Below are positions 36,492 to 64,000 of a stretch of 64,000 nt of DNA, piece by piece; the stretch's first letter is position 1, and each line of letters opens with the position of its first letter. The notes below the pieces were generated by a model. That model ran no database searches and was not told where the DNA came from. It saw nothing but the letters and a program-made list of their open reading frames with translations. The position numbers and the translations under genes were made by a program. Source of the stretch: Pseudomonas izuensis (GTDB lineage: Bacteria; Pseudomonadota; Gammaproteobacteria; Pseudomonadales; Pseudomonadaceae); assembly GCF_009861505.1 (NCBI RefSeq), contig NZ_WTFT01000003.1, positions 147,384-211,383 of the forward strand, in the 5' to 3' direction.

Positions 36492-36608
36492 CTACTCGAT
36501 ATCCTCTTTGTTCTTCAGATGTTGGATCCAACCATAAAGCGAAACGACAAGAACCATCAGGGTGAAAAACACCAACAATCCCACGACAATCACGGGCCAA
36601 GTAATCAC
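36492..36608 (-). CDS. Small single-span membrane protein (38 aa)
   Basis: A GTG at 36608, with GAGG 6 nt upstream, opens 38 codons: an almost purely hydrophobic helix (ITWPVIVVGLLVFFTLMVLV), then SLYGWIQHLKNKEDIE. This is a classic small inner-membrane protein: one helix with a short charged C-terminal tail. It sits between acnA and the capsule genes on the opposite strand. I do not know a family name. Confidence 0.65.
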   Translation of the reverse strand: MITWPVIVVGLLVFFTLMVLVVSLYGWIQHLKNKEDIE

Positions 36609-37089
36609 GTCCGTCCTCTGATACAGGATAATCCGCCAGCACGCCATTCAAGCGAATGGCCGGCGCATATCGACAAGGTAACACGCCAAGTTTTACGCAC
36701 CATGGAACAACGTCACAATTCCTGACTGGCGGCGATATGTGCCTAAATGCCGCACATTGAGGCACGCTCCGCCGAGCTAAAGGGTCGGGCCTGACATACC
36801 TGCGCGTCAACGTTAAAAATCATTAAAATTGTCCGCTCCATTCAGGCACTGTTATCGGCAACACCCGATAAACATTGAGGAAATCCGTTTTCCTGACCTG
36901 CGCCCATCGCTCCCGAACCGTTACTTTTAGTCAGGCACTGCCAGGGAACCAATCGGCTTGACGATTGTCTCCCCGACCGTTTAACCTCGCGCCCCTCGAA
37001 TGGAAGCGATCTATCTGCATAGGCAGAAAGTCCTCTGAAAATGAATTCAAACAACGCGTGCATCGCGCCGTTGTGCTTTGCGGTAACCC
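36609..37089. other. Upstream region of the capsule operon
   Basis: 481 bases with no gene. It contains an AT-rich patch (GTTAAAAATCATTAAAATTG, about 36811-36830) suitable for a promoter. A 10-bp direct repeat TCAGGCACTG occurs at 36842-36851 and 36931-36940. I looked for a JUMPstart/ops element (GGCGGTAG) and did not find one. Confidence 0.5.
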
Positions 37090-37884
37090 ATGCTCAAGCC
37101 TCGCTCCCCCCTGCAAATCAAAAAATCCGTCATTTTTGCCCTGGTGCTGCGTGAAGCGCGTTCGCGTTTCGGCGACCGACGCATGGGCGCCACCTGGACA
37201 CTGATCGAGCCCATTTGCCATCTGCTGATCCTGAGCGTGCTGTTTGCCTTGATTCGCGGCCGCACCGTGGCAGGCATCGACTTCCCGGTCTTTGTATTGG
37301 TCGGCCTGGCGCCCTTCCTGCTGTTTCGCAACATCGCCATGCGCCTGATGAACAGCCCCAAGGAAAACCGTGCGCTGTTTTCCTATAAACAGATCAAGCC
37401 CCTCGACACCTATATCGCCCGTGCGCTGGTGGAGTTCTGCATTTCGGCCAGCGTGTACGCCATTCTGGTGTTCGGCTTCGCCTGGTACGGCTTTGACATG
37501 TCCATCAAGTCGCCCATCGAGTGGATGCTGACCATCTTGCTGGGGGTCGTGTTCGCCTTTGGCCTGGGCATGCTGTTGTCGCTGATCGCCCATGCCATGC
37601 CCAGCAGTACATTGTTCCTGCGGATGATGTTCTTCCCGCTGTATTTCATCTCGGGCGTACTCATCCCCGCCGCCTACCTGCCGCACGCCATGCTGCCGCT
37701 GTTGCTGCTCAATCCGTTCCTGCACCTGCTTGAACTGCTCCGTGCCGAAATCTTTCCGCATTACGTTCCGGTCGATGGTGTCTCGGTGCACTACGTGATC
37801 GCCTTCACCCTTGTTTTGCTGTTCGTCTCCCTGGGTACTTATCGGGTTCGTCGACTGCATTTGATCTCCACCAAGAACGGCTAA
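37090..37884 (+). CDS. kpsM: Capsule ABC transporter permease KpsM
   Basis: 264 residues with about six transmembrane helices and the ABC-2 polysaccharide exporter pattern: an amphipathic N-terminus (LREARSRFGDRRMGATWTLI), then LRMMFFPLYFISGVLIPAAYLP. It forms the inner-membrane pore that exports lipid-linked capsular polysaccharide together with KpsT. It is the first gene of a run kpsM-kpsT-kpsE-kpsD on the plus strand; kpsT begins 13 nt after its stop. No strong Shine-Dalgarno is visible. Confidence 0.9.
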   Translation: MLKPRSPLQIKKSVIFALVLREARSRFGDRRMGATWTLIEPICHLLILSVLFALIRGRTVAGIDFPVFVLVGLAPFLLFRNIAMRLMNSPKENRALFSYKQIKPLDTYIARALVEFCISASVYAILVFGFAWYGFDMSIKSPIEWMLTILLGVVFAFGLGMLLSLIAHAMPSSTLFLRMMFFPLYFISGVLIPAAYLPHAMLPLLLLNPFLHLLELLRAEIFPHYVPVDGVSVHYVIAFTLVLLFVSLGTYRVRRLHLISTKNG

Positions 37885-37897: not shown

Positions 37898-38551
37898 GTG
37901 TTCGAGCTCAGAAATATCACCAAGTCGTACCTGACCCCCAAAGGTCGCCGCCACGTGTTTCGCGACCTGTCGCTGAAAATCCCCGCCGGCAAGAACATCG
38001 GCCTGATCGGCCGCAACGGCGCAGGCAAATCGACCTTGATGCGCCTGCTGGGCGGCGCTGACATTCCAGACTCCGGCACCGTTGTCACCGACAAGAGCAT
38101 TTCCTGGCCCGTAGGCCTGGCCGGCGGTTTCCAGGGCACCATGACCGGCCGCGAAAACATCAAGTTCGTCAGCCGGGTGTATGGCGCCGAAGGTGATGCC
38201 ATGCGCCAGAAGATTGCCTACGTCGAGGACTTCGCCGAAATCGGCGACTGGATCGACGAACCGGTCAAGACCTACTCCTCCGGCATGCGCTCGCGCCTGG
38301 CCTTCGGCCTGAGCATGGCCTTCGACTTCGATTACTACCTGATCGACGAAGTGATGTCGGTGGGTGATGCGCACTTCAAGCGCAAGTGCGCCGATGTGTT
38401 CGAGGAGCGCCTGAAGAAATCCAGGGTTGTGCTGGTTTCCCACAGCATGCCCGATATCAAAAAGCTCTGTGACGTCGTGCTGCTGGTGCGCGATGGCGGG
38501 GTGCAGATCTATGACGATGTCGATGAAGGCATCAAGGCCTACAACACCTGA
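37898..38551 (+). CDS. kpsT: Capsule ABC transporter ATPase KpsT
   Basis: 217 residues: Walker A GRNGAGKSTL (about residue 41), signature YSSGMRSRLAFGLS (the reduced signature typical of polysaccharide ABC ATPases), and Walker B YYLIDEVMSVGD. It powers KpsM. Starts with GTG (37898), AGG upstream. Length matches the short E. coli KpsT type without the C-terminal carbohydrate-binding domain found in Wzt proteins, which suggests export is not controlled by recognition of a terminal sugar. Confidence 0.93.
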   Translation: MFELRNITKSYLTPKGRRHVFRDLSLKIPAGKNIGLIGRNGAGKSTLMRLLGGADIPDSGTVVTDKSISWPVGLAGGFQGTMTGRENIKFVSRVYGAEGDAMRQKIAYVEDFAEIGDWIDEPVKTYSSGMRSRLAFGLSMAFDFDYYLIDEVMSVGDAHFKRKCADVFEERLKKSRVVLVSHSMPDIKKLCDVVLLVRDGGVQIYDDVDEGIKAYNT

Positions 38552-38599
38552 TCGCCCTGACCGCGGCGTGATTGTTTTATTTCAAGGATGCGAGTGCAT

Positions 38600-39706
38600 A
38601 TGAGCAGTACGGGTAAATTCAAGGGCTGGCGCCTGACGCTGGGGCTGATCGTGCTCCCGATGGTTGTCGCCATCGTCTACTACAGCTTTTTTGCCGTGGA
38701 CCGTTTTGTCAGTTCCGCGCAAGTGGTCGTACGTCAGGACGGCAACAACCCTGCCGCTCAAATGCCTGGCCTGAGCATGCTGCTCAGCGGTGCCAACCCG
38801 GCCTCCCGGGAAGAGACCCTGTACTTGCGTGAATACATCGTGTCGATGGACATGATGCAGTTGCTGGAAGACCGCCTGCACTGGGTCGAGCAGTACAGCA
38901 AGCAACGCAATGACCCGTTCTTCTGGCTGGACAAGGACACCGAGCGCGAGGACCTGCTCGAGTACTACCAGCGCATGGTGTCCGCCCACTACGACGAAAC
39001 CACCGGCCTGCTCAAAGTTGAAGTACAAGCCTTCAGCCCGGAACTGGCCGAGCAAATGGTCAAGACCATTCTTGAGGCCAGCGAGCACTTCGTGAACGAA
39101 GTCTCCCACAGCATCGCCCGCGAGCAGATGCGTTTCGCCCAAGGCGAACTGGAAGGCGCAAAGAAGAACTACACCAAGCGCAAGGAAGAGCTGCTGAGCT
39201 TCCAGAACCGTAACAAGGTTCTGGACGGTAGAAGCTCGGCCCAGGGCCGCGCCAGCATCATCGACACCCTGGAAGGCGAGCACTCCAAAGAGCGCGCCGT
39301 ACTCACGCAAATGAGCTACAAGCTTCGCGCTGATTCACCTCAGGTTGCGCAGCAACAGCAACGCGTCAACGCCATTCGTGAACAGCTCAATGCCGAAAAA
39401 CGCCTGCTGGTGTCTGCACCCGATGGCGACCAGCTCAACGTGGTGGCTTCGCGCTTCCAGCAGCTGACCCTGGACGCCGGCATCGCCGAGGAAACCTACA
39501 AGACCGCCGTTGCCGCACTGGACAACGCACGCATTGAAGCCAGCAAGAAGATCCGCACCCTGGTGACCGTGGTCAGCCCTAACACGCCGCAAATGGCCCT
39601 CTATCCAGAGCGCCTGTACAACCTGGCAACCCTCTTCCTTGCCCTGCTCCTTCTGTACGGCATCACCCGCTTCCTAATTGCATCGATCGAGGATCATCGT
39701 GATTAA
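38600..39706 (+). CDS. kpsE: Capsule export inner-membrane protein KpsE (PCP family)
   Basis: 368 residues with an N-terminal transmembrane helix (about 10-30), a long periplasmic coiled-coil region (about 150-300; QGELEGAKKNYTKRKEELLS) and a C-terminal helix preceded by the proline motif SPNTPQMALYPERL. This is the polysaccharide co-polymerase/export layout that bridges KpsMT to the outer-membrane KpsD channel. An ATG at 38588, four codons earlier, is possible; AAGGA precedes both. Its last codons overlap kpsD by 8 nt. Confidence 0.9.
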   Translation: MSSTGKFKGWRLTLGLIVLPMVVAIVYYSFFAVDRFVSSAQVVVRQDGNNPAAQMPGLSMLLSGANPASREETLYLREYIVSMDMMQLLEDRLHWVEQYSKQRNDPFFWLDKDTEREDLLEYYQRMVSAHYDETTGLLKVEVQAFSPELAEQMVKTILEASEHFVNEVSHSIAREQMRFAQGELEGAKKNYTKRKEELLSFQNRNKVLDGRSSAQGRASIIDTLEGEHSKERAVLTQMSYKLRADSPQVAQQQQRVNAIREQLNAEKRLLVSAPDGDQLNVVASRFQQLTLDAGIAEETYKTAVAALDNARIEASKKIRTLVTVVSPNTPQMALYPERLYNLATLFLALLLLYGITRFLIASIEDHRD

Positions 39707-40829
39707 ATCCATTTCCGGCCTGCCCCTTCGCCCCCTGAACTTGAGCATGCGAAACAGCGCTGTCGCGGGTTTGATGCTGGTGACTTTGACCCTGGCGGGT
39801 TGCGGCGGCACCTTGTCTGGTGCAGGCCCGTACAAAGGCGATATCGAAAGCAAAAGCCAGAGCGCGGCGTATGACCTGGTGGACATCAACGCCAACACCA
39901 TCGCGCCGTTCATGCGCCCAGCCGCCAAGCCGACCAAAGCCAAAATCACCAGCCCCCTGGCGCAAAGCGTGCGCCTGATGGGCGGCGACGTGATCAATGT
40001 GCTGATTACCGACAACGCGCCGGAAGGCAGCGGCCTGTTCGCCCCGCTCTCCACGGGCGGCACCCAACTCAAGGTGCGCATCGACGACAAGGGGATGATC
40101 TCCCTGCCCTACGTTGGCCATCAGTTCGTCGCCGGCATGACCCTGATCCAGGTCGAAGACATGATCCGCCAGAAGCTCAAGGGCGTGACCACCGACGTGC
40201 AGGCGCACGTGGATCTGGTGGGTGATCTGTCGGGTTCGGTGTTGGTCGCCGGCGCAGTGAAAGCCCCAGGGCGATTCTCCACCCTGCAGGGTCCGCTGAC
40301 CTTGCTGGATGCGGTCAACCAGGCGGGTGGCCCGGTGATGGAGCCGCATTTGGTCAACGTCACGGTACGTAATGGTGCTCAAGCCAGCACCTACAACTAC
40401 GAAGATATCCTGGCCGGTAACAACTTCGTCCTGAAGCCCAATTCGGAAGTGATCCTGGACCGTGCGCGCCAGCGCTTTGTGGCGATGGGTGCTGTGGGCG
40501 AGCCAGGCTTGCACGACCTGCCGGCACAGAACGCCAGTCTGTTGGATGCACTGGGTTCCGTGGGCGGCCTGAAAGAAGCCAATGCAAACCCACAGGGTGT
40601 ATTCGTGTTCCGGATGGGGGAAGCCACCCCTACTCAAGTGGCCAAACCCATTGTCATGCGTATTGACATGCGTGATCCGGCTGCAATCTTTTACGCCCGC
40701 CAAGTCATGCTAAAGCCGGATGACACGATTTATGTCACCAACGCGGCTGTGTACGAGTGGCAAAAAATTATCGGACCCATCGTACAGACCCTTGTACTGG
40801 GTCGAGCCGTGGGCGTGAGCCCCAACTAA
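39699..40829 (+). CDS. kpsD: Outer-membrane polysaccharide export lipoprotein, Wza/KpsD family
   Basis: 376 residues. A signal region ends in a lipobox LTLAGC (Cys35 from the GTG start). It is followed by a polysaccharide-export domain (about 85-185; GGDVINVLITDNAPEGSG) and SLBB repeats (VLVAGAVKAPGRFSTLQG and FVAMGAVGEPGLHDLPAQ). It forms the outer-membrane exit of the capsule. It is Wza-like in length; E. coli KpsD is longer and not a lipoprotein. The GTG at 39699 has GAGG 6 nt upstream and overlaps the kpsE stop, indicating coupling. An internal ATG at 39747 would give a more ordinary signal peptide. Confidence 0.85.
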   Translation: MIKSISGLPLRPLNLSMRNSAVAGLMLVTLTLAGCGGTLSGAGPYKGDIESKSQSAAYDLVDINANTIAPFMRPAAKPTKAKITSPLAQSVRLMGGDVINVLITDNAPEGSGLFAPLSTGGTQLKVRIDDKGMISLPYVGHQFVAGMTLIQVEDMIRQKLKGVTTDVQAHVDLVGDLSGSVLVAGAVKAPGRFSTLQGPLTLLDAVNQAGGPVMEPHLVNVTVRNGAQASTYNYEDILAGNNFVLKPNSEVILDRARQRFVAMGAVGEPGLHDLPAQNASLLDALGSVGGLKEANANPQGVFVFRMGEATPTQVAKPIVMRIDMRDPAAIFYARQVMLKPDDTIYVTNAAVYEWQKIIGPIVQTLVLGRAVGVSPN

Positions 40830-45754: not shown

Positions 45755-46690
45755 TCAGTCAAAAATCTCCACAACCCCCACCACCTCATCCCCACCATCC
45801 GCTGTCACCGGCAACGCCCGAATTTTGTGCTCCAGCATATAAGCTTCAGCCTCGGACAACTGCGCAGAGGCTTTAACCGTGTGCGGGTTCGGTGTCAGGA
45901 AAGTCGCCACGTTTTCGTTCACGACACCTGGATTGCCCAGCAGTGCGCGACGCAGGTCACCGTCGGTGACGATGCCGATCAACTTGTCTTGCTCCATCAC
46001 CAAGGCGAGGCCCAGGCGGCTGGAGGTCATGACCAGCAGGCAGTCGTGGAATGAGGTGTCGCGGGTGACTTTGGGGATGTTGGTGTGCATGACGTCGCTC
46101 ACGCGGGTCAGCAGTTTGCGGCCGAGGCTGCCGCCGGGGTGGTAGCGGGCGAAGTCCATCGGTTTGAAATCGAGGGCGCTGATCAGGGCAACGGCGAGTG
46201 CGTCGCCCATGGCCATGGTCGCCAGGGTCGAGGTGGTGGGGGCCAGGTTGTTCGGGCACACCTCGCGCTCTACCGAGATGTCGAGCCAGATGTCGGCGTG
46301 TTTGGCCAGGGTGGATTGGCCGTTGCCGGTCATGGCGATGATCTTGTTGCCGAAGGATTTCAGGCTCGGGATCAGCTTGATCACTTCTTCCGTTTCGCCG
46401 CTGTAGGAAATCAGGATCAGGACGTCAATCGGCTTGAGCATGCCGAGGTCGCCGTGGAAGGCTTCGGCCGGGTGCAGGAACAGGCTCGGAGTGCCGGTGG
46501 AAGCGAAGGTGGCGACCATTTTCTGGCCGATCAAACCGGACTTGCCCATGCCGCATACCGCCGCACGGCCTTTGCAACCGAGGATCAGTTCGACGGCGCG
46601 CTGGAATTCGCCATCCAGGCGTTCTGCAAGTTGACTGATGGCTTGTGCCTGGGCGCACAGCGCTTCTTTGGCGATGGGAAGGTGATTCAT
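45755..46690 (-). CDS. kdsD: Arabinose-5-phosphate isomerase, KdsD/KpsF family
   Basis: 311 residues. It converts ribulose 5-phosphate to arabinose 5-phosphate, the first step to Kdo. An N-terminal SIS domain (about 30-170) has GMGKSGLIGQKMVATFASTGT and PAEAFHGDLGML. Two CBS domains follow (about 200-311; VMHTNIPKVTRDTSFHDCL and TPNPHTVKASAQLSEAEA). In group 2 capsule loci a second copy (KpsF) supplies extra Kdo for the poly-Kdo linker, which fits its place beside kpsC and kpsS. The ATG at 46690 begins MNHLPIAKEAL; the Shine-Dalgarno is weak. It is divergent from kpsC. Confidence 0.9.
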   Translation of the reverse strand: MNHLPIAKEALCAQAQAISQLAERLDGEFQRAVELILGCKGRAAVCGMGKSGLIGQKMVATFASTGTPSLFLHPAEAFHGDLGMLKPIDVLILISYSGETEEVIKLIPSLKSFGNKIIAMTGNGQSTLAKHADIWLDISVEREVCPNNLAPTTSTLATMAMGDALAVALISALDFKPMDFARYHPGGSLGRKLLTRVSDVMHTNIPKVTRDTSFHDCLLVMTSSRLGLALVMEQDKLIGIVTDGDLRRALLGNPGVVNENVATFLTPNPHTVKASAQLSEAEAYMLEHKIRALPVTADGGDEVVGVVEIFD

Positions 46691-47143
46691 GGGGACGTTA
46701 TCGTTCCTTGATTTTGGGGGCGCGTATGTTAGCGGCTCATTGCCAGCGAGGGAATGTTGATATCGCGGACGCGGCAAGCTGGAGCCGCTGCGTGAGTTTA
46801 TGGGCGCGATTGCGTTGATGTCTGTCGGCGACTGTTACGCCCTCTTCGCTGGCAAGCCAGCTCCTACAATGTGCGAGGCCCTTCCTTGATTCGGCTTGAT
46901 AGTCAAGCGCCTTGAGCGGCTCGCCATGACCGCTCATCGGACAAGTCACTTTCCTACAACTGTCAAGTTTAAAAAAATCACATTTTTTGTGAAAAAGTTG
47001 TTAGAAAAGGGGCGTTTTGGTGAATGGCAGTTGGCCATTTGTATTATCATTTGCGCCACATTTGATTGAGCATTTTCTTCAGGCACGCACTGATTCGTGA
47101 CTGACAAGAGAGTGCGCTCGTTTATGGATATCCGCTGTTTTTT
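46691..47143. other. Divergent kdsD/kpsC intergenic region
   Basis: 453 bases. After the decayed REPIN comes an AT-rich tract with an inverted repeat TCACA-N5-TGTGA (46978-46992) and a -10-like TATTAT (47042-47047). These are possible promoter parts for the kpsC operon, but no clear -35 is visible. No gene seen. Confidence 0.5.
46735..46868. repeat. Decayed REPIN in the kdsD-kpsC gap
   Basis: The right arm CTTCGCTGGCAAGCCAGCTCCTACA (about 46844-46867) is intact. The left arm (ATTGCCAGCGAGGG, 46740-46753) is truncated. Confidence 0.65.
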
Positions 47144-49171
47144 ATGGACAATGCCGCTACACGTCGCTCTTTGCTGATTTTGTCTAAAGGTGCGCAACAA
47201 ATCCCCACCCTTTGCGCCTTGCTGCCCGAGTATCGGCTGCTGCGTGGAACGGTGCGCGACATTGCCCAGGCCGATGAAGTCCTCGCGTGGGGACGCAAAC
47301 CCAGCGCATTGCGCGCTCAAGCCGTAGCTCGAGAGGCTGGCTTGCCGCTGCTCACCGTCGAAGACGGCTTTTTGCGCTCGGTAGGTCTGGGCGTCGAAGA
47401 CCCACCACTGTCATTGATCGTCGATCCGCTGGGCATCTACTACGACGCCACCGCCCCTTCTCGCCTGGAACAACTGATTGCCGAACCGCTGACAGACGCG
47501 CAGATGCTGCGCGCCCGCGCGTTACAGGCGAGCTGGTGCGAGGAGCGTGTGTCCAAATACAACGGCGCCCGCATTGAAACCTGCGTATTGCCGCAGCCCT
47601 GCGTGCTGGTGGCCGATCAGACCCGCGGCGATGCGTCGTTGCAGGGCGCTACTGTCGCTGATTTCCAGCGCATGCTTGAAGCCGCACTGGCCCGGCATCC
47701 GCAGTGCACGGTGGTGGTGAAGGTTCACCCGGACGTGGTGGCCGGGCGCAAGCAAGGTCACTTTGACCTGGCGGCGCTGCGCAAACAGCCACGAGTTCAT
47801 CTGATCAGCGAAAACGTTCACCCGGCCGAGCTGCTGCCTGCCGTTCAGGCTGTGTACGTGATGACCTCGCAACTGGGCTTCGATGCCTTGTTGTGGGGCG
47901 TACCGGTGCATACCTTTGGCATGCCGTTCTATGCCGGTTGGGGTTTGACCACCGATGCCCTGCCCGCCCCTGCGCGGCGCCACCCCGTCAGCCTTGAACA
48001 ATTGTTGCATGCCGCGTTGGTGGAGTACCCGCGTTACGTCGATCCGGAAACGGGGGCGCCCTGTCAGCCGGAGACCGTTTTGGCGTGGCTTGGTTTGCAA
48101 CGGCGGATGCGCAGTCGGCTGCCGAAAGACTTGCGGATGGTCGGCTTCAGCAAATGGAAACAGCCATTAGTGCTGGATTTTTTCAACGGTTCGTCCATTC
48201 GTTTCCAGGGACGTTTTTCCCGTCAGCGCGCCTCAACTGCGGTCATCACTTGGGGGTGTCAGCACGACACGCCATTGACCCAAAAAGCTGGCAAGCACCT
48301 CGGCCGCGTCGAAGACGGCTTCCTGCGCTCCGTCGGCCTGGGCGCGAAGAAAACCCGTCCGCTGTCCTGGGTGTTCGACGACCTCGGCATTTACTACGAC
48401 GCGACCCGTCCGTCGCGCCTGGAACACCTCTTGCAGAACGAACCGTGCAACCCGGGCTTGTTGCAGCGGGCAGCGGCGCTGCGTGAAGCGATCTGTGCCG
48501 CCGGTGTCACCAAATACAACTTGCCTGGCACCTCGTGGAAACGTCCCGCCGGTGTCGAGAAAGTGATTCTGGTACCGGGCCAGGTCGAGTCCGACGCCTC
48601 GATTCGTTATGGCGCGTACCGGATCCGGCGCAATCTCGATTTGCTCAAGGCAGTGCGCGAGCGCCATCCGTTGGCGTGGCTGTTGTACAAGCCGCACCCC
48701 GAAGTACTGGCGGGCACCCGTAAGGCGGGCGAAAACGAAGAACGCACCAGCGACTGGTGCAACCAAGTGGTCGGCGATGTGCCTTTCCACGAACTGTTGT
48801 CCGAGGTCGATGAGGTGCATGTACTGACCTCGCAATCAGGCTTTGAAGCCTTGTTGCGCGGTGTGCCGGTCACCACCTACGGCCAGCCGTTCTATGCCGG
48901 TTGGGGACTGACCCGCGATCAGGGCATGAGCCCTGAAGTCCAGGCACGTCGTACGCGACGCCTGAGCCTGGACGAACTGGTGGCCGCGACCCTGATCCGC
49001 TACCCGACCTATGTCAGCCGCATTACCCGAAAATTCACCACCCCCGAACGCACATTAGTAGAGATCCAGAACTGGGATGAAGTACGCACACAAGGAAGAA
49101 CTACAACATGGCGAGAGATGATTCAGCGTTTGTTCCTGACCGCATTGAAACCGCGCATGAGAAACTCGTAG
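47144..49171 (+). CDS. kpsC: Capsule beta-Kdo transferase KpsC (two-domain)
   Basis: 675 residues made of two related glycosyltransferase modules. Each has a VEDGFLRSVGLG motif (about residues 75 and 385), a DPLGIYYDAT/DDLGIYYDAT motif, and an FYAGWGLT motif near its end. In group 2 capsules KpsC extends the Kdo put on phosphatidylglycerol by KpsS, alternating linkages through its two modules. The presence of both modules argues that a poly-Kdo linker is made here. It overlaps kpsS by 64 nt. Confidence 0.93.
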   Translation: MDNAATRRSLLILSKGAQQIPTLCALLPEYRLLRGTVRDIAQADEVLAWGRKPSALRAQAVAREAGLPLLTVEDGFLRSVGLGVEDPPLSLIVDPLGIYYDATAPSRLEQLIAEPLTDAQMLRARALQASWCEERVSKYNGARIETCVLPQPCVLVADQTRGDASLQGATVADFQRMLEAALARHPQCTVVVKVHPDVVAGRKQGHFDLAALRKQPRVHLISENVHPAELLPAVQAVYVMTSQLGFDALLWGVPVHTFGMPFYAGWGLTTDALPAPARRHPVSLEQLLHAALVEYPRYVDPETGAPCQPETVLAWLGLQRRMRSRLPKDLRMVGFSKWKQPLVLDFFNGSSIRFQGRFSRQRASTAVITWGCQHDTPLTQKAGKHLGRVEDGFLRSVGLGAKKTRPLSWVFDDLGIYYDATRPSRLEHLLQNEPCNPGLLQRAAALREAICAAGVTKYNLPGTSWKRPAGVEKVILVPGQVESDASIRYGAYRIRRNLDLLKAVRERHPLAWLLYKPHPEVLAGTRKAGENEERTSDWCNQVVGDVPFHELLSEVDEVHVLTSQSGFEALLRGVPVTTYGQPFYAGWGLTRDQGMSPEVQARRTRRLSLDELVAATLIRYPTYVSRITRKFTTPERTLVEIQNWDEVRTQGRTTTWREMIQRLFLTALKPRMRNS

Positions 49172-50430
49172 TTCCTGTCGAGCGCCCCCAACGTCCGGTA
49201 TCGGTAAAACCGCGCAACTCATTCCTGTTTCTGCAGGGCGTCAGTTCGCCGTTTTTCGCACGCCTGATCCAGGCACTGCGGGCCGAGGGACAGTGGGTCA
49301 AGTCGGTCAACTTCAACATGGGTGACATCCTGTACGGTAGCGGTGCGCGAGTGTTTTATTCGGCGCGCCCCGAGCAGTTGATGGACTTTTATAGCCAGTG
49401 CTTCAGGGCCGACCACATTACCGACGTGGTGCTGTTCGGTGACTGCCGTCCCGTGCATCAGCCGGCAGTGGAACTGGCCAGGTCGCTGGGCATTCGCGTG
49501 CACGTGTTCGAAGAAGGTTATTTTCGCCCCTACTGGATCACGCTTGAGCGCAATGGCGTGAACAATCACTCGCTGCTGCCCCGTGATCCGGAATGGTATC
49601 GGGAAGTGGGCAAGTACATCCCGCGTTATCAGAATGGCAATCCGTTCCACCTGTCCTTTGCCTCCCGGGCCCTTCACGACGTGATGTATCACATCGGTAG
49701 TGCACTGAATAAAGTGGTATTCCCGCACTACAAAACCCACGCGCCCTTCAACGCTGCGGTGGAGTACGCCGGCTACATTCGCCAGGGTATTCGCCTGGCC
49801 CGCGCCCAAGGCCGCGATTCGGAGGTGATCAGTCAAGTGGCGCGCAATCGCCATCGCACCTTCCTGTTGCCACTGCAACTGGACAGCGATGCGCAGATCC
49901 GCGATCACTCGCCGTTCAAGCACATGAAGGATGTGCTCAAGCATGTAATGGGTTCGTTCGCCCGCCATGCCGGCAGTGATACGCGTCTGGTGGTCAAGAA
50001 TCATCCCCTGACCCCGGGCATCGTCAACTACCACCGGATCACTCTGCGCATTGCTCACAAACTCGGCATCGCCGATCGCGTGGACTTCCTCGAAAGCGGC
50101 CACTTGCCGACACTGCTGTCCCACGTCGCGGGTGTGATCACGGTCAACAGCACTGTGGGCGGTTCATCGCTGATGCACAACGTGCCCACCATCGCCCTCA
50201 GCGACCCGATCTATAACCTCAAGGGACTGACCCATCAGGGCGGCCTCGACGATTTCTGGCACACGCCGGAACCGCCTGACACCACGCTGTTCCAGCGCTT
50301 TCGCAGCACCGTGATTCACACCACCCAGGTCAATGGCGGCTTCTATACGCGCTGCGGTATCGACATGGCCGTGAACAACTCGCTGGAAGTGTTGATGGCC
50401 AAAACCTCCAGGATTGAACGCTACCTATGA
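49108..50430 (+). CDS. kpsS: Capsule Kdo transferase KpsS
   Basis: 440 residues. KpsS adds the first beta-Kdo to the lysophosphatidylglycerol acceptor in group 2 capsules. Motifs: NSFLFLQGVSSPFFARLIQAL at the start, HVFEEGYFRPYWITLERNGVN (about 130), LVVKNHPLTPG, and GVITVNSTVGGSSLMHNVPT (about 345). It starts inside the kpsC 3' end (64-nt overlap) with AGGAAG upstream, and its last bases overlap the next gene (ATGA). It is therefore coupled to both neighbours. Confidence 0.92.
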   Translation: MARDDSAFVPDRIETAHEKLVVPVERPQRPVSVKPRNSFLFLQGVSSPFFARLIQALRAEGQWVKSVNFNMGDILYGSGARVFYSARPEQLMDFYSQCFRADHITDVVLFGDCRPVHQPAVELARSLGIRVHVFEEGYFRPYWITLERNGVNNHSLLPRDPEWYREVGKYIPRYQNGNPFHLSFASRALHDVMYHIGSALNKVVFPHYKTHAPFNAAVEYAGYIRQGIRLARAQGRDSEVISQVARNRHRTFLLPLQLDSDAQIRDHSPFKHMKDVLKHVMGSFARHAGSDTRLVVKNHPLTPGIVNYHRITLRIAHKLGIADRVDFLESGHLPTLLSHVAGVITVNSTVGGSSLMHNVPTIALSDPIYNLKGLTHQGGLDDFWHTPEPPDTTLFQRFRSTVIHTTQVNGGFYTRCGIDMAVNNSLEVLMAKTSRIERYL

Positions 50431-52758: not shown

Positions 52759-53362
52759 CATCGACACCGTCCCTTTGCAGATCGCCCTCGGCTCCCACTT
52801 GCCGGAGCCTGATGAATCGATCGCGCGGATGATCACTTCGGGTCGCAGCTCCCTGGCCTTCTTGCTTGGTGATGAGGCCTGCCGCTACCGACTGCTGGCC
52901 GAGTCGATCAACTGGGACCGGGTGCTGATCGCCTACCGCGATCGCACCCCCCTTGGCTATGCCGCGTTCAAGCATCATCGGCGCGGGCCTTTCTCGCCCG
53001 GCGCCGGGCCTTTTCTGCGCGAGTTCGGCCGGTTGCGGGGCGCACTGCGCTACCTGCTGTTTGCAATTATCGAAGGGCGGGAGTGGTACTACGGCTTTTA
53101 TCTCTATGGATTGCACGTGCTCAAGCACGCCCGTCATCAGGGCATTGCCCGTTCGCTGATGGCAGCGATCTTTGACCAGGCCCGGCAAGCCGGCCATGAC
53201 CGGGTTGCGCTGGAGGTCCATGTGAAGAATCAACGGGCCCGACGGCTCTATGAGCAACTGGGCTTTACCCGGGTCCGGGCCACGCCAGTGAATTGGCTGG
53301 GCCGCCTTCTGCCCTTCCCCGCGGTGATCAACATGCGCCGCTCGCTGACATCCCAACCATGA
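52751..53362 (+). CDS. GNAT-family N-acyltransferase
   Basis: 203 residues. The GNAT acyl-CoA motif A lies in HQGIARSLMAAIFDQARQAG and motif B in NQRARRLYEQLGFTRV. An N-terminal part of about 75 residues precedes the core. It overlaps the genes on both sides (8 nt upstream, 4 nt downstream), so it belongs to the coupled string. It could N-acylate an amino sugar of the capsule or the amino group of the lipid made by the oxoamine synthase. Bacterial ceramide-forming N-acyltransferases are known from other lineages, but homology is not shown here. Confidence 0.78.
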   Translation: MNDIDTVPLQIALGSHLPEPDESIARMITSGRSSLAFLLGDEACRYRLLAESINWDRVLIAYRDRTPLGYAAFKHHRRGPFSPGAGPFLREFGRLRGALRYLLFAIIEGREWYYGFYLYGLHVLKHARHQGIARSLMAAIFDQARQAGHDRVALEVHVKNQRARRLYEQLGFTRVRATPVNWLGRLLPFPAVINMRRSLTSQP

Positions 53363-55203: not shown

Positions 55204-55662
55204 TTGCCCACTCGCTCCCACGCTAATCAACTGCGCGCCGGCCGGTATTCCCAGTCCGGACAAATTTACCTGCTCACTGCCGTGACCCACCTGCGTGAAC
55301 CGGTATTCCGCGATTGGCGAGCGGGACGTTTGGTGGTGGATCAATTTCGTCTGGCCAAATCAGAAGGACGGGCAGACTCGCTGGCCTGGGTGGTAATGCC
55401 CGACCACTTTCACTGGCTGGTCGAACTCCAGAACAGCACACTGCCCAGGTTGATGCTTACAACCAAGTCTTGCAGCGCGAGAGAGATCAATGCCTACCTG
55501 GGTCGCTCAGGCCAATTTTGGCAAAAAGGTTTCCACGATCGCGCCATTCGCCGTGAAGAAAATCTGTTAGCCGTGGCCCGCTACATCATTGCCAACCCGT
55601 TGCGCGCAGGTCTGGTCAAACGCGTTCATGACTATTCGCTGTGGGATGCCATATGGCTATAG
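55204..55662 (+). CDS. REP-associated tyrosine transposase (RAYT)
   Basis: 152 residues of the Y1/IS200-like transposase fold. The metal-binding HUH motif is HFH (residues 68-70 in VVMPDHFHWLVEL) and the likely catalytic Tyr127 lies in AVARYIIANP; FWQKGFHDRAIR is also typical. The frame is intact. RAYTs are single-copy, domesticated transposases thought to spread REP sequences of matching class. Here it is bordered by a REP array upstream and REPs downstream, the first of which begins at the stop codon. Starts with TTG (55204) with GGAGGG upstream. Confidence 0.92.
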   Translation: MPTRSHANQLRAGRYSQSGQIYLLTAVTHLREPVFRDWRAGRLVVDQFRLAKSEGRADSLAWVVMPDHFHWLVELQNSTLPRLMLTTKSCSAREINAYLGRSGQFWQKGFHDRAIRREENLLAVARYIIANPLRAGLVKRVHDYSLWDAIWL

Positions 55663-55845: not shown

Positions 55846-57195
55846 TTATAGCTTTTGCAGTTCCTGCGCAACAATGGCGACGGTTTCGGCGATTTGTTCC
55901 GGGGTGTGCAGGCACGACACGAAAAAGCGCACACGCGCCGATTTCTCGGGGACCGCCGGATGCAAGATGGGTTGGGCATTGATGCCGCGACGGGACAATG
56001 CGCTGGACAATTGGGTCGCCTTGAGTGAGCTGCCGGTGATGACCGGAACAACCGCCAGGCCGGTGCTGGTGCCGGTGTCCAGGCCCGCTTCCCGGGCAAG
56101 TTCCAGGAACTGCCTGCCACGCGCCTGCAGGGTGGCGACGCGTTCGCCATCTTCTGGCAGGCATCGCAACGCGGCCAAAGCTGCCGCCGTCACCGATGGC
56201 GGCATGCCGACACTGTAGAGAAAGCCCGGCGCCAGGAATTTGAGGTGCTCCACCAGTGCAGACTCGCCGGCGATGTAACCGCCGCAACTGGCCAGGCTTT
56301 TGCTCAAGGTGCCCATCCAGATATCTACGTCACTGCCGGCCAGACCGAAATGTTCGCGAATGCCCTTGCCGGTCTGTCCCATGACGCCCAGCGAATGCGC
56401 TTCATCGACCATCAGCAACACCTGATGTTTTTTCCTGAGTTCGACGAAGCGTGGCAAATCCGGGAAATCGCCATCCATGCTGTAAATGCCTTCGAGCACC
56501 ACCAACACCCGCTCGAAATGCTGACGCTGATCACTCAGTACCCGGTCAACCGCCTCCCAGTCGTTATGGGCAAAACTGAGGCGCCGGGCGCCGGACAACT
56601 GAATACCCTGGAGAACACTGTTATGAATCAGTTCGTCATGCAGGATCAAATCCCGCGGACCGAACAGATAACCGATGGTGGTCACGTTCGTCGCATGACC
56701 GCTGACGAATGTAATAGCGTCGTCCACCTCGTAGAGCCGGGCCAGTTCCTGCTCCAGCTCACGATGGATCGGCCGGTCGCCCGACACCGGGCGGCTAGCC
56801 GAAACCGAGGTCCCAAAACGATCGATGGCCGCCTTGGCAGCTTCGACGACAACCGGGTGTCCTGAGTAGCCCAGGTAGTTGTAGCTCGCGAAGTTCACGT
56901 AGAGGCTACCGCCCATGACGGTTTCGGCCCCGGCCAGGCCGTCGTGCTGCTTGAAGAACGGATTGACCAGGCCAAATCGCGCGGCACCGTCGAGCATGAT
57001 GCGCAAATGCTGATAGCCAGGGTGCTGGTCAAATCGGCAAAACTGCCCGAAGTCCTCGCGCCGGTTACCTTTGATGCTTTCCAGCGAGGGGCCTGGAGCG
57101 CCATCGCCGTTTTTGCGCATGCGCCGTTCCAGGGCTTGCTGGATCAGCTTGTCCTTCATCGAAGTGGCAAGCCCGGACGTGGTTCTATTGGTCAT
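55846..57195 (-). CDS. Alpha-oxoamine synthase (AONS/SPT family), RkpG-like
   Basis: 449-residue PLP enzyme. It has an N-terminal extension of about 90 residues, then the family core: FASYNYLGYSGHP, DEAHSLGVMGQTGKG, the PLP lysine (Lys299) in GTLSKSLASCGGYIAG, and FLYSVGMPPSVTAA. These enzymes condense an acyl thioester with an amino acid, releasing CO2 and giving an alpha-amino ketone, as BioF, serine palmitoyltransferase and CqsA do. It starts 8 nt after the PKS stop on the same strand, so it most likely uses the PKS acyl-ACP as substrate. The amino acid cannot be told from sequence. A TTG at 57207 overlapping the PKS stop is an alternative start. Confidence 0.88.
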   Translation of the reverse strand: MTNRTTSGLATSMKDKLIQQALERRMRKNGDGAPGPSLESIKGNRREDFGQFCRFDQHPGYQHLRIMLDGAARFGLVNPFFKQHDGLAGAETVMGGSLYVNFASYNYLGYSGHPVVVEAAKAAIDRFGTSVSASRPVSGDRPIHRELEQELARLYEVDDAITFVSGHATNVTTIGYLFGPRDLILHDELIHNSVLQGIQLSGARRLSFAHNDWEAVDRVLSDQRQHFERVLVVLEGIYSMDGDFPDLPRFVELRKKHQVLLMVDEAHSLGVMGQTGKGIREHFGLAGSDVDIWMGTLSKSLASCGGYIAGESALVEHLKFLAPGFLYSVGMPPSVTAAALAALRCLPEDGERVATLQARGRQFLELAREAGLDTGTSTGLAVVPVITGSSLKATQLSSALSRRGINAQPILHPAVPEKSARVRFFVSCLHTPEQIAETVAIVAQELQKL

Positions 57196-57203
57196 GGTTC
57201 GGA

Positions 57204-60200
57204 TCAATCAATCAAACGTGAGGGTTTTGAAACCTGGGTGTCGAGCCCATCGTTCATCGCAATATCGTCAGCGCTAATGTCGACCCCATGACGGGAAAGC
57301 GTATCGCTCGCCAGCGATTGCTGCGCATTTCCCGCATCCGGTTGCCCATCGCTCTCCTGATTACCGCGCAGGAGTTCAAGGATTCGAACGGTGATCTTAT
57401 CGATGCTTGATGCTTCGCTCAGCGCCATGACCGGTAGACGAACACCGAATCGTTCCTCGACGGCCACTACCAACTCGACGCTCATCAGCGAGTCCAGGCC
57501 CAACTCTTGAAGCGGTCGCGTGACGTCCAGCTTGCTGGTTGGCAAACGCAGGATTTCGCTGATTTCCTGCTTGAGCATTTCACTGAACAGCTCGATCAGC
57601 TCGGGGTCATCCATTTCTGCCAGCAGTCGCTGGATATCGTCGACATCGCTTTCTTCGTCCTGCTCACCCCCGTGCAACCTGGCCAGTTCACTGAACTTGG
57701 GCGAACCGGCAGCCGGCAGGAATCGCGACAGTGCTTTCCAGTCCAGCTCCAGCACGCCCAGCCCCGAACGTCGTTGCAGCAGCAGGCGCTCGAGAGTCTG
57801 CAGGGCTGCTTGCGACTGCAAGGCAGCGCCACCCATGCGGCTTTGCAGGGCGTCTTTGATGTCCTGGTTGCGCGCCAGGAAACCTGCATCGTCAATGGCC
57901 CCCCAGAGTACGCTGGTGGCCGGCAGCCCCAACGCCAGGCGATGACGCGCCAGCGCTTCGAGCCAATGGTTGGCGGCGACGTAGTTGGCCTGACCCGGGT
58001 TGCCGAACAAGGTCGTGGCCGAAGAGAACAGCACGAAGAAGTCCAGCGGCAGATGCGCCGTCAATTCATGCAGGTATTGCGCGCCTTTGGCCTTGGGCTC
58101 CAGAACGCGTTGCAGTTGTTCGCGGGTCAGATTGCGGATCAAGCCGTCGTCGAACACCGTTGCCGCATGCACCACGCCACGTAATGGCCGGGCACTGGCT
58201 TCAATGCGCGTCATGACGGACGCCAACTGCGCCGCGTCGGTGATGTCGCAGGCCAGCGCCTGAACCTCGATGCCCTGCTCGCGCCACAATGTCAGCAGGG
58301 GTTGCGCTTCTTCAGTCGCGGCACCACGGCGACCGAGCAGAACCAGGTGACGGGCACCTTTCTCCACCAGCCATTGCGCACTGCGCAGACCGAAACCACT
58401 GAGCCCACCGGTGACCAGGTAGGTGGCGTTTGCCTCCAGCATCAACACCTGCGAGCGCGAGACCGATGCACTGACAGTCTCCCGGATTGGCGTGCGATAC
58501 GTCACGACGATCTTGCCGATCTGCCTGGCCTGTTGCATGTAGCGGAACGCTTCAACGACTTCATTGGCATCGAAGGCGCGATAGGGCAATGGGGCCAGGA
58601 TGCCTTCGCGGAACAATCCCATCATTTCGCTGAACAGCCGACGGGTCAGCTGCGGGCGTTCACTCATGAGCTGGTCGGCGTCGATGCCGAAATAGCTGAT
58701 GTTATTGCGGAACGGTCGCAGGCCAATTTTGGTGTTCTGGTAAAAGTCGCGCTTGCCCAATTCGAGGAAACGACCAAACGGCTTGAGTACCCGCAGGTTA
58801 CGATTGATCGCCTCCCCCGCCAGGGAATTGAGTACCACGTCCACGCCGCGGCCATCGGTGATCGCCAGGATGTCATCGGCGAACGCCAGCGAACGCGAGT
58901 CAAAGATATGCTCGACGCCCATCAGGCGCAGGAAATCGCGTTTCTCGTCGCTGCCGGCCGTGGCGTAGATTTCGGCACCGCACCATTTGGCAATCTGGAT
59001 TGCGGCAATACCGACACCGCCCGCTGCGCCGTGAATCAGGATCTTCTCACCCGGCTCAAGCCGCGCCAGGTGATGCACGGCGTAATAAACCGTGAAGAAC
59101 GTACTCGGAATGGTCGCCGCCGCCTCGAAAGACATGCCTTCAGGAATGCGCGCCACGGCGTTGGCGTTGGTGACCAAGCGATTGGCGAAGCTCGACGGAC
59201 CAAAGCCGACGACACGATCGCCCGGCTGGAAATCGCCTTCAACCGACGAGCCCTTGCCACGCACCACACCGGCAAATTCGAAGCCCAGGGTCGGCCCCGA
59301 GAAACCGTTTTCGATCGCTTCATCCGACAGCAGACCCAACGCGTACATGACATCGCGGAAGTTCAGACCGGTGGCCTGAACCTCGATGTCCAGTTCATCG
59401 TCAGCCGGAACGAGCGGCGCTCGTGTTTCCCAGCGCAGATTGCGCAACTGCCCCGGCAAGTCGAAGCCGAGCCTGACCTGCGCCGGCGCATCCAGCGGCG
59501 TTGGAACTGGCAACTCATAGGGTTGGACCCGCAACCTTGCGACGTATCGATCGCCAGCCGCACTGACCACCAATTCGGTTTCTTCATCAGCGTTGAGCAA
59601 TGCCGGCACCAGCGCCTCGACACCGGCCCCCGTCGCCAGATCGAGCAGACGGACACGACAGCCAACCACTTCATTCGCCAAGGTCCGGCCGAAACCCCAC
59701 AAGGCCGCATCGGCAATACCTTGCACCGTCGTTTCCCCACGGGCGCCTTGTGGCAGCAGATGGACCGCGGCGCCTGAAGTCACCAGCCAGCAATCCGCAG
59801 CGACGCCGGCCGACTCACAGGCTTGCGTGATGTCTGCGGCGAGCATGCAGCGCTCAGCCTGCGCATCCAGCCCTTGGCGTGCCAACAACCCGGCCAGCAT
59901 CACAATGTGTTGAGGCGCAACGGGGCGTTCACGCAGCTGTTGCGCCAGCACCGATGCCGAGCCCGGTGCAAGCACGGCAACCTCTTGGCCTTGCTCGCGC
60001 AACAGCGAAGCCAGTGCCTGGGTCAATGGTCCTTCCGGACCTTGCCCGTCGGCAATCAGCAACCAGCTCTGAGACGGATGCCCGGCGGCCGTCGCGAGGG
60101 GCTTTGCACAGTCCTCGGTGGCCACCAACAGATAGCTCCCGGACGCCGAGTCCGGAATGAACTCCAGAGGCTCGCAGACTTTCAGGCCATGACGTTGCAG

Positions 60201-63200: not shown

Positions 63201-64000
63201 GCCACTTTCCAGCACCGTCGACAACGCCGGAACGCCCGGCTCAGTGGCAAAGTCCAGCAGTGCCTGTGCACTCTCCAGTGTTTGTGCGCCAAACACCACG
63301 ACCCGTTGCGGGTGCAACTCGCGTCGAAAGATCGACTGGTAGGCCACGTCGTAAAGGTCCGTCGCCTCTGGCCCGGACAAGAATTGCGCGAGTTGTTCGG
63401 ACTGAGCAGCAAGCGCTGCGCTGTCCTTGGCAGTGACCATCAGCGGCACCGACTGCCCTTGCCGGCTCGGCGTTTGCGGCACAGGTGGCGGACTTTCCAG
63501 GATGACGTGGGCGTTGGCCCCGCCAAAACCAAAGGAATTGACCCCGACCACCAGTTTTCCGTCGGCTTTGAGCGCCTGGGTTTCGGTGACCACACTGAGG
63601 TTGAGGTCTGCGAACGGAATGTTCGGATTGAGTTTCTTGATGCCGATGGTGGCCGGTACCTTGCGTTCGACCACGCAGTACAACGCCTTCATCAAACCGG
63701 CAACACCCGAGGCGGCTTCCAGGTGCCCGATGTTGCTTTTGATCGAACCGATCAGCAGTGGCTTATCCACAGGGCGCTGCTGCCCCAGTGCCTCACCGAT
63801 GGCCCGGCTTTCGATCGGATCGCCCACTGGCGTGCCCGTACCGTGAGCTTCCAGGTAGTCGATGTCCGCCGCATCGATGCCGGCGACGTCATAGGCCTGC
63901 TTCATCAGGGCAATCTGCGCCGTCGCGCTCGGGACAGTCAGACTCGACTTTCGCCCATCTGTATTGGCCGCACTGCCGGCGACGACGGCCAGGATCTGGT
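57204..64000 (-). CDS. Highly reducing type I polyketide/fatty-acid synthase, RkpA-like (N-terminus outside window)
   Basis: At least 2264 residues are visible; the frame is open to base 64000, within the ketosynthase. Order: C-terminal KS (EAHGTGTPVGDP, GSIKSNIGHLEA); AT (GHSVGEVAAAW, about 63.2-62.3 kb); DH (HRVGDSVLFPGAGF and HPALLDSAFQ, about 62.1-61.2 kb); a methyltransferase-like region with a weak SAM loop (ILELGFEGASLA, about 60.7-60.1 kb); ER (HGAAGGVGIAAIQIA, about 59.4-58.5 kb); KR (YLVTGGLSGFGLR, Ser/Tyr pair present); and ACP (ELGLDSLMSVELV, about 57.5 kb). No thioesterase follows. One full reducing module of this kind can act iteratively to make a saturated chain. The next gene, an oxoamine synthase, would release it. 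Confidence 0.92.
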   Translation of the reverse strand, partial: QILAVVAGSAANTDGRKSSLTVPSATAQIALMKQAYDVAGIDAADIDYLEAHGTGTPVGDPIESRAIGEALGQQRPVDKPLLIGSIKSNIGHLEAASGVAGLMKALYCVVERKVPATIGIKKLNPNIPFADLNLSVVTETQALKADGKLVVGVNSFGFGGANAHVILESPPPVPQTPSRQGQSVPLMVTAKDSAALAAQSEQLAQFLSGPEATDLYDVAYQSIFRRELHPQRVVVFGAQTLESAQALLDFATEPGVPALSTVLESGRALDEAKGPVFVFSGNGSQWQGMGKSLLSDPVFHQAVAEVDAIFQPLSGYSLIGELAGEQGDDRYHLTEFAQPALFALQVGVTRMLAEKGVVPVAVIGHSVGEVAAAWACGALTLSDATRVIYHRSRLQGLTKGCGKMAAVGLSGADTVSLLRTLGLDGELVVAGENSFKGATVAGPVPALDILEQALTERQVFVRRLALDYAFHSPAMEVIADQVIDVLSDVVPGPARIPMYSTVAGDVLAGEHLDAEYWWKNIRYPVLFQSASEALARQGYNVFVEVGPHPILRAYVADALASQALEGVVIPTVLRGEESPQLIDRTLAKVLIAGVDIDLQCLFPHTGRFVQLPNYAWQRERHWHVDTPESSGNLSRNRVHPLLGYPLPEHEFTWDNRLDTQLFPSLGDHRVGDSVLFPGAGFTEVVLAAALQYQPGEFVEIEELEIHSPLLLHADFSKKVRVMIDSSDGGVSIVSRSTAQAEPWVQHVVARLPGEAQGGLLACTAPVLPARDPDFTSAEHLALTCAVGLNYGPAYQAVEAGWIEGNQVLARLTIPAPIETELATLNVHPALLDSAFQLITQLLREDVGRRQDLAFIPVKLGRITFAAGSLPPCLAQVKLVRRSEHSLLADFTLYDVDGRAVICIKDARFRGVRLHKDRSGDIKLVDFVGVAKPYPARQRTVPLPASRLEAQLRQHLCALADDPVQARYADEIDPLLDGLCGSFLLETIGKLGGELTMQQHADREAGHYLEHLLKQAQEDGSLVAVGDKRWQLVDQGERARAEDIWQELFSSYPEYFQIIHSVGRIGMHLAELISGQVNLAQLLPRETTPAVLTRMVLGASGHHALLSGLREHIAQRLDALPDGQRLRILELGFEGASLAAELCVGLDFDRVDYQYVAQNIESLSMLQADFPDLQIRSLEASEHIAPTPANSFDLVLAATDLASLDAISQGLQHGAARLCVNGELLLLAQHPARWADFTFGAESSWWLAPQGQQALSVQQAPGFWQQELQRHGLKVCEPLEFIPDSASGSYLLVATEDCAKPLATAAGHPSQSWLLIADGQGPEGPLTQALASLLREQGQEVAVLAPGSASVLAQQLRERPVAPQHIVMLAGLLARQGLDAQAERCMLAADITQACESAGVAADCWLVTSGAAVHLLPQGARGETTVQGIADAALWGFGRTLANEVVGCRVRLLDLATGAGVEALVPALLNADEETELVVSAAGDRYVARLRVQPYELPVPTPLDAPAQVRLGFDLPGQLRNLRWETRAPLVPADDELDIEVQATGLNFRDVMYALGLLSDEAIENGFSGPTLGFEFAGVVRGKGSSVEGDFQPGDRVVGFGPSSFANRLVTNANAVARIPEGMSFEAAATIPSTFFTVYYAVHHLARLEPGEKILIHGAAGGVGIAAIQIAKWCGAEIYATAGSDEKRDFLRLMGVEHIFDSRSLAFADDILAITDGRGVDVVLNSLAGEAINRNLRVLKPFGRFLELGKRDFYQNTKIGLRPFRNNISYFGIDADQLMSERPQLTRRLFSEMMGLFREGILAPLPYRAFDANEVVEAFRYMQQARQIGKIVVTYRTPIRETVSASVSRSQVLMLEANATYLVTGGLSGFGLRSAQWLVEKGARHLVLLGRRGAATEEAQPLLTLWREQGIEVQALACDITDAAQLASVMTRIEASARPLRGVVHAATVFDDGLIRNLTREQLQRVLEPKAKGAQYLHELTAHLPLDFFVLFSSATTLFGNPGQANYVAANHWLEALARHRLALGLPATSVLWGAIDDAGFLARNQDIKDALQSRMGGAALQSQAALQTLERLLLQRRSGLGVLELDWKALSRFLPAAGSPKFSELARLHGGEQDEESDVDDIQRLLAEMDDPELIELFSEMLKQEISEILRLPTSKLDVTRPLQELGLDSLMSVELVVAVEERFGVRLPVMALSEASSIDKITVRILELLRGNQESDGQPDAGNAQQSLASDTLSRHGVDISADDIAMNDGLDTQVSKPSRLID

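Follow-up and report, generated by a model that had tools for sequence, protein, structure and literature searches.

In two known capsule systems close to the one analyzed here, wcb and rkp, as described in excerpts of the papers cited, capsule genes stand beside genes for a dedicated lipid. In the wcb cluster of Burkholderia pseudomallei, KpsS, a short-chain dehydrogenase/reductase (SDR), a sulfatase-like membrane protein, the polyketide synthase (PKS) WcbR and an 8-amino-7-oxononanoate-synthase-like enzyme are encoded consecutively at BPSL2792-2787, where BPSL2788 is named a deacetylase; the next gene, BPSL2786, encodes an acetyltransferase (PMC4275268). The wcb (Burkholderia) and rkp (Nitrosomonas, Rhizobium) clusters are mostly homologous, with a type I PKS among the capsule genes (PMC3908369), and rkp-1 is credited with a 'specific lipid carrier' in a review that cites the 1997 rkpGHIJ work (PMC4881576). 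In known group 2 systems, the anchor is (lyso)phosphatidylglycerol bearing poly-Kdo, and KpsS adds the first 3-deoxy-D-manno-oct-2-ulosonic acid (Kdo) to this lipid (PMC11666461). Here, a 64,000-nucleotide stretch of the 6.87 Mb genome of Pseudomonas izuensis (assembly GCF_009861505.1, contig NZ_WTFT01000003.1, positions 147,384 to 211,383, forward strand; below, the window) was analyzed, which at 37090-64000 holds an ABC-transporter-type capsule locus together with a lipid cassette consisting of a PKS, an alpha-oxoamine synthase (AOS), an SDR, an RkpI-like membrane protein and a second, RkpJ-like KpsC homologue.

On balance, this is probably an Rkp/Wcb-kind KpsMTED capsule locus that makes its own anchor lipid, with the product of PKS, AOS and SDR serving as the acceptor of KpsS. 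A sequence-only reading of the window had placed kpsMTED, kdsD, kpsC and kpsS in one locus with the cassette; every gene that it named was recovered with significant family matches, and its family assignments and its idea of a dedicated lipid are supported. Its gene list lacked a GNAT-family gene and a Bcs3-like polymerase gene, and its framing of the locus as an unusual hybrid does not hold; a hybrid unique in Pseudomonas was likewise rejected, the same set being present in wcb, rkp, Sinorhizobium meliloti pSymB, a Pseudomonas plasmid and other Proteobacteria.

KpsS phylogeny and the lipid cassette

KpsS was found at E ≤ 1e-30 in 30 of 269 Pseudomonadota genomes. An RkpG-type AOS, at 553-828 bits, was present in 10 of the 30, while other AOS-family matches gave 207-385 bits with G463 and G654 highest; G463 was labelled AOS-negative because its score lies far below the RkpG-type group. 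A PKS lay beside the AOS in all ten, and RkpI was detected at E ≤ 1e-8 in seven of these ten versus none of the 20 AOS-negative genomes. In a maximum-likelihood tree of 33 KpsS rows, G495b included, the 12 rows of the ten AOS-positive genomes fell on one side of a single branch with support 96/93; the split was present in 94% of bootstrap trees, and none of 500 shuffles gave as low a number of changes (shuffle mean, 10 changes). Members of family f38 and members of the window's order sit on both sides, tracking AOS rather than taxonomy, with the two AOS-negative f38 rows on a very long branch. Because cassette loci were the source of the KpsS profile (A2), its scores favor that group, and the argument rests on the tree and not on the scores.

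In a second tree, ten rows were added, seven of which (five named loci, S. meliloti and the plasmid of Pseudomonas sp. TMW 2.1634) were chosen knowing that the cassette was present, and G495b was left out as a long branch. The split held at 94/92, just under the tool's star, with KpsS of Escherichia coli Nissle and of an E. coli plasmid on the AOS-negative side, that of S. meliloti pSymB on the AOS-positive side, and that of P. syringae GAW0119 nested within the AOS-positive side. Residue 47 was Ser in 17 of 19 AOS-positive rows and Gly in 21 of 22 AOS-negative rows, GAW0119, which kept a label of its own, being left out of this count.

That the KpsS tree follows the presence of the lipid cassette most likely reflects a change of lipid acceptor. 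The sequence-only reading had raised a 'second, special anchor'; since KpsS splits by AOS presence, a sole anchor appears more likely. The split is, as far as the literature was searched, a new observation. KpsS relatives were also found on plasmids: of 100 matching records, 17 were from Escherichia, 21 from Klebsiella and 21 from Enterobacter, and one E. coli plasmid (L193) carries a kpsC-kpsS-like pair with sugar genes.

Fold and active site of RkpI

Seven PDB sequences matched RkpI at E ≤ 0.001, all of them phosphoglycerol transferases of the LtaP, GacH and LtaS type. The structure model used, from a deeper alignment, had a mean pLDDT of 90.8 and showed a catalytic domain preceded by five helices of membrane length at the N terminus; the model from alignment A1 (pLDDT 64) was set aside. 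In VIA-align, GacH ranked first at Z 28.9 (rmsd 2.8, 275 residues), followed by a second GacH at 27.4, LtaP at 24.8, LtaS at 23.9 and 3lxq, an unassigned Vibrio protein of the alkaline phosphatase superfamily, at 23.8, with sulfatases at 21.8 or below and phosphoethanolamine transferases at about 20 (BcsG 20.0, EptA 19.8). Foldseek likewise ranked GacH, LtaP and LtaS at the top. This comparison covers model residues 194-505, leaving the membrane part barely tested.

In alignment A4, made of 40 of the available RkpI sequences, window included (L037, which has an internal stop, and L045 were left out), Thr269, Arg328, His388, Asp451 and His452 were invariant and aligned with the equivalent residues of LtaP and GacH. 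The matching Thr, Arg, His and Asp residues have assigned roles in LtaS. By fold and residues, RkpI is of the LtaS/GacH type, with an alkaline-phosphatase-like domain that bears the catalytic Thr and the metal ligands; it did not reach the NCBIfam equivalog cut-offs for LtaS (33.6 versus 970 bits) or phosphoglycerol transferase I (18 versus 572 bits). The assignment of RkpI to a phosphoglycerol-transferase fold is new within the literature searched.

A scan of one genome per species gave 492 RkpI relatives, and the best 80 loci were kept (29 from Pseudomonas and 51 others). The SDR gene immediately precedes rkpI in 76 of the 80, and the remaining four end at the locus edge.

Polyketide synthase and alpha-oxoamine synthase

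The PKS start lies 763 bases beyond the window, and Pfam matches on the full-length protein gave KS, AT, DH, ER, KR and ACP domains. This reducing type I order, found with an AOS, an SDR and a sulfatase-fold membrane protein accompanying KpsS, is that of an Rkp/Wcb cassette. No Pfam match to a thioesterase was obtained in the full PKS, which fits chain release by the AOS. In an alignment with three relatives including S. meliloti, the KS Cys and His, AT Ser, DH His and Asp, KR Ser and ACP Ser, all residues with assigned catalytic roles, were seen; the KR Tyr was identified in the window protein alone. A C-methyltransferase domain was considered and rejected, as there was no Pfam match between DH and ER and the stretch resembles a degenerate methyltransferase by eye only.

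Lys303, Asp268, His271 and Arg425 of the AOS, residues to which functions are assigned in this enzyme family, were invariant in 13 aligned sequences. Twelve NCBIfam models, including BioF, KBL, ALAS and serine palmitoyltransferase (SPT), matched the AOS, each with a score under its cut-off. With bioF at 328 versus 426 bits and the KBL cut-off likewise not reached, a biotin- or threonine-pathway enzyme was rejected; the SPT equivalogs gave 290 versus 640, 258 versus 500 and 207 versus 670 bits. As judged from their sequences, PKS and AOS look intact.

Distribution of the cassette

The Pseudomonas survey was one draw of 398 genomes from a larger group, with relatedness ignored. RkpI was found in 18 genomes, AOS at more than 700 bits in 17 (two further AOS, at 347-359 bits and 46% identity, are of another kind) and KpsS at more than 600 bits in 17, with 19 further genomes giving only KpsS matches below 31 bits. 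All 17 KpsS-bearing genomes had RkpI and 16 had AOS; the overlap of 16 between KpsS and AOS, with 17 positives each, has a hypergeometric probability of 2e-26. Had PKS and AOS usually occurred without capsule genes, this would have spoken against the sequence-only reading; the opposite was seen, KpsS being present in 16 of the 17 AOS-positive Pseudomonas genomes. In G003 and G315, AOS and PKS lie together but away from the kps locus, so that the co-occurrence is not merely linkage. In G196, a deletion between kpsC and rkpI removed kpsS and the SDR gene, so that what remains of kpsC (488 codons from its start) now abuts the 3' half of rkpI (L198/L023).

Outside Pseudomonas, the set was found in Methylococcaceae, Accumulibacter, Collimonas, Achromobacter, Halomonas and S. 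meliloti pSymB, and within the genus it was also found on a plasmid. In 19 of the 51 non-Pseudomonas RkpI loci, both AOS and PKS were within the sequence fetched, many of these stretches ending early at a contig end. Of all 80 loci, 38 had no local AOS; 34 of these were followed up (L043, L058, L079 and L089 were left out), and an AOS of at least 520 bits was found elsewhere in 29 of 33 genomes. The association of PKS and AOS with capsule genes goes beyond chance, given a gene order shared between genera and the coincidence of KpsS with AOS. On the same two grounds, we rejected the possibility that PKS and AOS belong to a natural-product cluster unrelated to the capsule genes next to it.

The plasmid locus (L191, NZ_CP016850.1 1-32813) has kdsA and kdsB along with the capsule and lipid genes; its host, Pseudomonas sp. 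TMW 2.1634, comes from poultry meat, and the plasmid is typed as mobilizable, so the locus can probably move.

RkpJ-like open frames measured 731-793 amino acids in five other Pseudomonas loci versus 488 in the window, with two Capsule_synth stretches in the one tested. The one-module form occurs in the window and related Pseudomonas; other Pseudomonas carry the two-module form, followed by a PhyH gene. By tblastn, the GNAT gene was seen in Pseudomonas and in one of the 51 non-Pseudomonas loci (L087), and the PhyH dioxygenase in many Pseudomonas and in three of the 51 (two Achromobacter and L087). PhyH gave no match in the window's genome, in a search whose query had matched other loci and which held no positive control of its own.

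Proposed pathway and alternatives

From the observed gene content, conserved gene order, co-occurrence, KpsS split, catalytic motifs and RkpI fold, we infer the following chemical steps. The iterative PKS would build a reduced acyl chain on its own acyl carrier protein (ACP), and the AOS would release the chain by condensation with an amino acid, serine if it behaves like SPT, yielding a 2-amino-3-keto lipid whose ketone the SDR would reduce; these three steps are suggested by the enzyme families. In the boldest step, which carries a topology problem, RkpI would take phosphoglycerol from phosphatidylglycerol and attach it to the free hydroxyl, so that a single-chain phosphoglycerol lipid mimicking lysophosphatidylglycerol results, and the GNAT protein would perhaps acylate the amine. 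KpsS would then put the first beta-Kdo on the lipid, KpsC (and RkpJ) would lengthen the Kdo linker, the Bcs3-like enzyme would add the serotype polymer, and KpsMTED would export the product.

Taken together, the KpsS tree and the phosphoglycerol-transferase fold of RkpI suggest a sphingoid-like base carrying phosphoglycerol. A broader proposal, which we put forward tentatively and regard as possible but doubtful, is that ABC-transporter-dependent capsules are anchored by two chemistries: KpsS of the E. coli lineage would act on lysophosphatidylglycerol, and KpsS of the other lineage (PKS-AOS-SDR-RkpI; Pseudomonas, Rhizobium, many other Proteobacteria) on a sphingoid-phosphoglycerol lipid with RkpI as the phosphoglycerol transferase. 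The KpsS split predicts a large group of Proteobacteria that departs from the (lyso)phosphatidylglycerol-anchor rule. If that holds, inhibitors directed at the capsule anchor would have to be designed in two versions, and bacterial sphingoid-like lipids would have a function not known for them before. The question of the KpsS acceptor bears also on the role of the special rkp lipid.

Several observations weigh against the proposal that the cassette lipid is the KpsS acceptor and that RkpI completes it. P. syringae GAW0119 (G155; L055/L020/L199) keeps kpsC, kpsS, sdr, rkpI and rkpJ, its PKS frame stops at 1233 amino acids, and neither AOS nor GNAT was found; this means a decaying locus or a lipid that the cell can do without. 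AOS was not detected in three other RkpI genomes (Thermomonas hydrothermalis and two metagenome-assembled genomes), and RkpI was not found in 3 of the 10 AOS-positive KpsS genomes, so that the phosphoglycerol step is not universal or RkpI is undetectable there. Judging from its family and the five N-terminal helices, the catalytic domain of RkpI should be periplasmic; KpsS is cytosolic, and the phosphoglycerol step therefore requires a flip. Since the unassigned 3lxq scores like LtaS, the fold alone leaves the reaction and substrate of RkpI unproven. Finally, 13 of the 20 AOS-negative genomes come from one family (f55), and the split in the KpsS tree can mirror old descent as well as a change of acceptor. 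GAW0119 may in itself be a natural case in which the lipid branch was lost.

Some of these points would be accommodated if the PKS/AOS/SDR lipid were the anchor and RkpI not its builder, KpsS glycosylating the amino-alcohol lipid while RkpI adds phosphoglycerol to the polymer or to another lipid of the envelope. The three AOS-positive genomes without detected RkpI, which have both AOS and PKS, and the expected periplasmic position of the active domain speak for this arrangement, but rkpI stands immediately behind the SDR gene in nearly all loci and was found in none of the AOS-negative KpsS genomes, and we consider it unlikely. Somewhat less likely still is a separate envelope or carrier lipid that is made together with the capsule for its export or retention and associates non-covalently, KpsS still acting on lysophosphatidylglycerol: GAW0119, which lost AOS and kept kpsS, is what such a lipid would allow, but a KpsS split by AOS is not expected if the acceptor is the same in both groups. 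That the lipid is attached to the capsule polymer at other sites, by acylation or as a decoration, giving a lipid-modified capsule, seems very improbable; GNAT and, in many Pseudomonas, PhyH do travel with the cassette, yet they are present in only one and three of the 51 non-Pseudomonas loci, where the core is shared, and the polymerase differs between strains while the cassette is constant. A dedicated anchor lipid that accepts Kdo from KpsS remains the reading that we favor.

Organization of the locus

The features of the locus are given in Table 1. Pfam matches to KpsM/KpsT, KpsE and KpsD identify an ABC-transporter-dependent (group 2-like) capsule, the NCBIfam matches for KpsM and KpsE being below their cut-offs, and the beta-Kdo transferases KpsS and KpsC are of the same group 2-like kind. 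Both KpsC modules contain the QxxxD nucleophile motif of the KpsC paper, as read by eye in the translation. With the starts used, each gene from kpsC to rkpJ shares 4 to 64 bases with its neighbor, and these genes therefore probably form one operon; the AOS start lies within about 10 bases of the PKS stop codon.

Table 1. Features of the capsule and lipid locus, in positions of the window
Feature	Position	Strand	Evidence
kpsM, capsule ABC transporter permease	37090..37884	+	PF01061 1.8e-17; NCBIfam KpsM 178 bits, below cut-off 300
kpsT, ABC transporter ATPase	37898..38551	+	PF00005 1.3e-16
kpsE, BexC/CtrB/KpsE-type inner-membrane export protein	38588..39706	+	TIGR01010 5.9e-90, 302 bits, below cut-off 437
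kpsD/Wza-type export protein	39678..40829	+	Poly_export and SLBB domains
Putative capsule polymerase with HAD domain, 1157 aa	41048..44521	+	phmmer: 7shg 7.8e-19; Bcs3 8a0c/9h50 2.5e-16
Possible alpha/beta hydrolase, 230 aa	44803..45495	-	Pfam matches all sub-threshold
kdsD/kpsF, arabinose-5-phosphate isomerase (Kdo precursor)	45755..46777	-	TIGR00393 2.5e-111, above cut-off
kpsC, dual-module beta-Kdo transferase	47144..49171	+	PF05159 (Capsule_synth) 2.2e-86, four stretches
kpsS, first beta-Kdo transferase	49108..50430	+	PF05159 1.5e-84; NCBIfam KpsS 282 bits, below cut-off 600
RkpH-like SDR, proposed 3-ketone reductase of the lipid	50427..51203	+	PF00106 4.3e-40
RkpI-like membrane enzyme, phosphoglycerol-transferase fold	51196..52758	+	PF00884 1.4e-31
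GNAT-family N-acyltransferase, accessory	52745..53362	+	PF00583 6.6e-15
RkpJ-like KpsC paralogue, one module, 488 aa	53359..54825	+	PF05159 4.6e-38, one stretch
IS200-like (Y1_Tnp) gene between rkpJ and AOS	55204..55662	+	PF01797 1.3e-8
RkpG-like AOS	55846..57207, start TTG 57207 or ATG 57195	-	PF00155 1.3e-47; best NCBIfam bioF 328 bits
RkpA/WcbR-like type I PKS, 2519 aa	57204..64000, start 64763 outside window	-	Pfam on full-length protein

The polymerase is related to Bcs3 of Haemophilus influenzae b and to a ribofuranosyltransferase. In the excerpt cited, Bcs3 transfers ribose-5-phosphate from phosphoribosyl pyrophosphate and its HAD domain removes the phosphate (PMC10299916); by this relationship, the polymer likely contains ribofuranose. 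The polymerase varies between strains, unlike the lipid cassette. A relative with 66% identity is encoded on the TMW 2.1634 plasmid.

The IS200-like gene is probably not part of the capsule and lipid system. Eight other Pseudomonas loci have it too (49-90% identity), and it is possibly of the RAYT type.

Comparison with known systems

No description of this combination in Pseudomonas and no sphingoid capsule anchor were found in a literature search that had most subscription papers outside its reach, and in a 2025 review of capsule attachment the terms 'rkp', 'polyketide' and 'sphing' do not occur (PMC12220298).

At the level of single enzymes, LtaS, LtaP and GacH have in common with RkpI the fold and the positions of the conserved Thr, Arg, His and Asp, but RkpI scores far under the NCBIfam LtaS cut-off. 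Similarly, SPT, 8-amino-7-oxononanoate synthase and KBL share the AOS fold family and the pyridoxal-phosphate residues with the window AOS, which differs by its sub-cut-off scores and by an acyl donor that is probably the PKS ACP.

At the level of the locus, the E. coli group 2 system (Nissle 1917) has KpsF, E, D, C, S, M and T and the Kdo linker machinery in common with the window, but no PKS, AOS, SDR or RkpI is annotated in its 22-kb stretch, neither the AOS nor the RkpI profile finds a match in it, and its KpsS belongs to the other KpsS group. In this stretch (L195, NZ_CP007799.1 3418000-3440000), kpsS is followed directly by kpsT and kpsM, with no serotype-specific genes annotated between; we would presume such genes (K5) to lie there.

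In S. meliloti, PKS, AOS, SDR, RkpI, KpsS and KpsF are encoded consecutively on pSymB, although the proteins are distant from those of the window (AOS 49%, KpsS 35%, RkpI 25% identity); the Sinorhizobium comparison is with these pSymB relatives. The Sinorhizobium rkp-1/rkp-3 regions combine dedicated lipid genes with capsule export genes as the window does (PMC4881576, in excerpt). The B. pseudomallei wcb cluster, likened through its published gene table, shares KpsS, SDR, the sulfatase-like protein, PKS and the AOS-like enzyme with the window, and differs in the heptose-precursor genes alongside and in the deacetylase BPSL2788, for which no counterpart was noted in the window (PMC4275268, in excerpt). 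The gene combination is thus already known from Burkholderia and Rhizobium, and the P. izuensis locus is another case of it.

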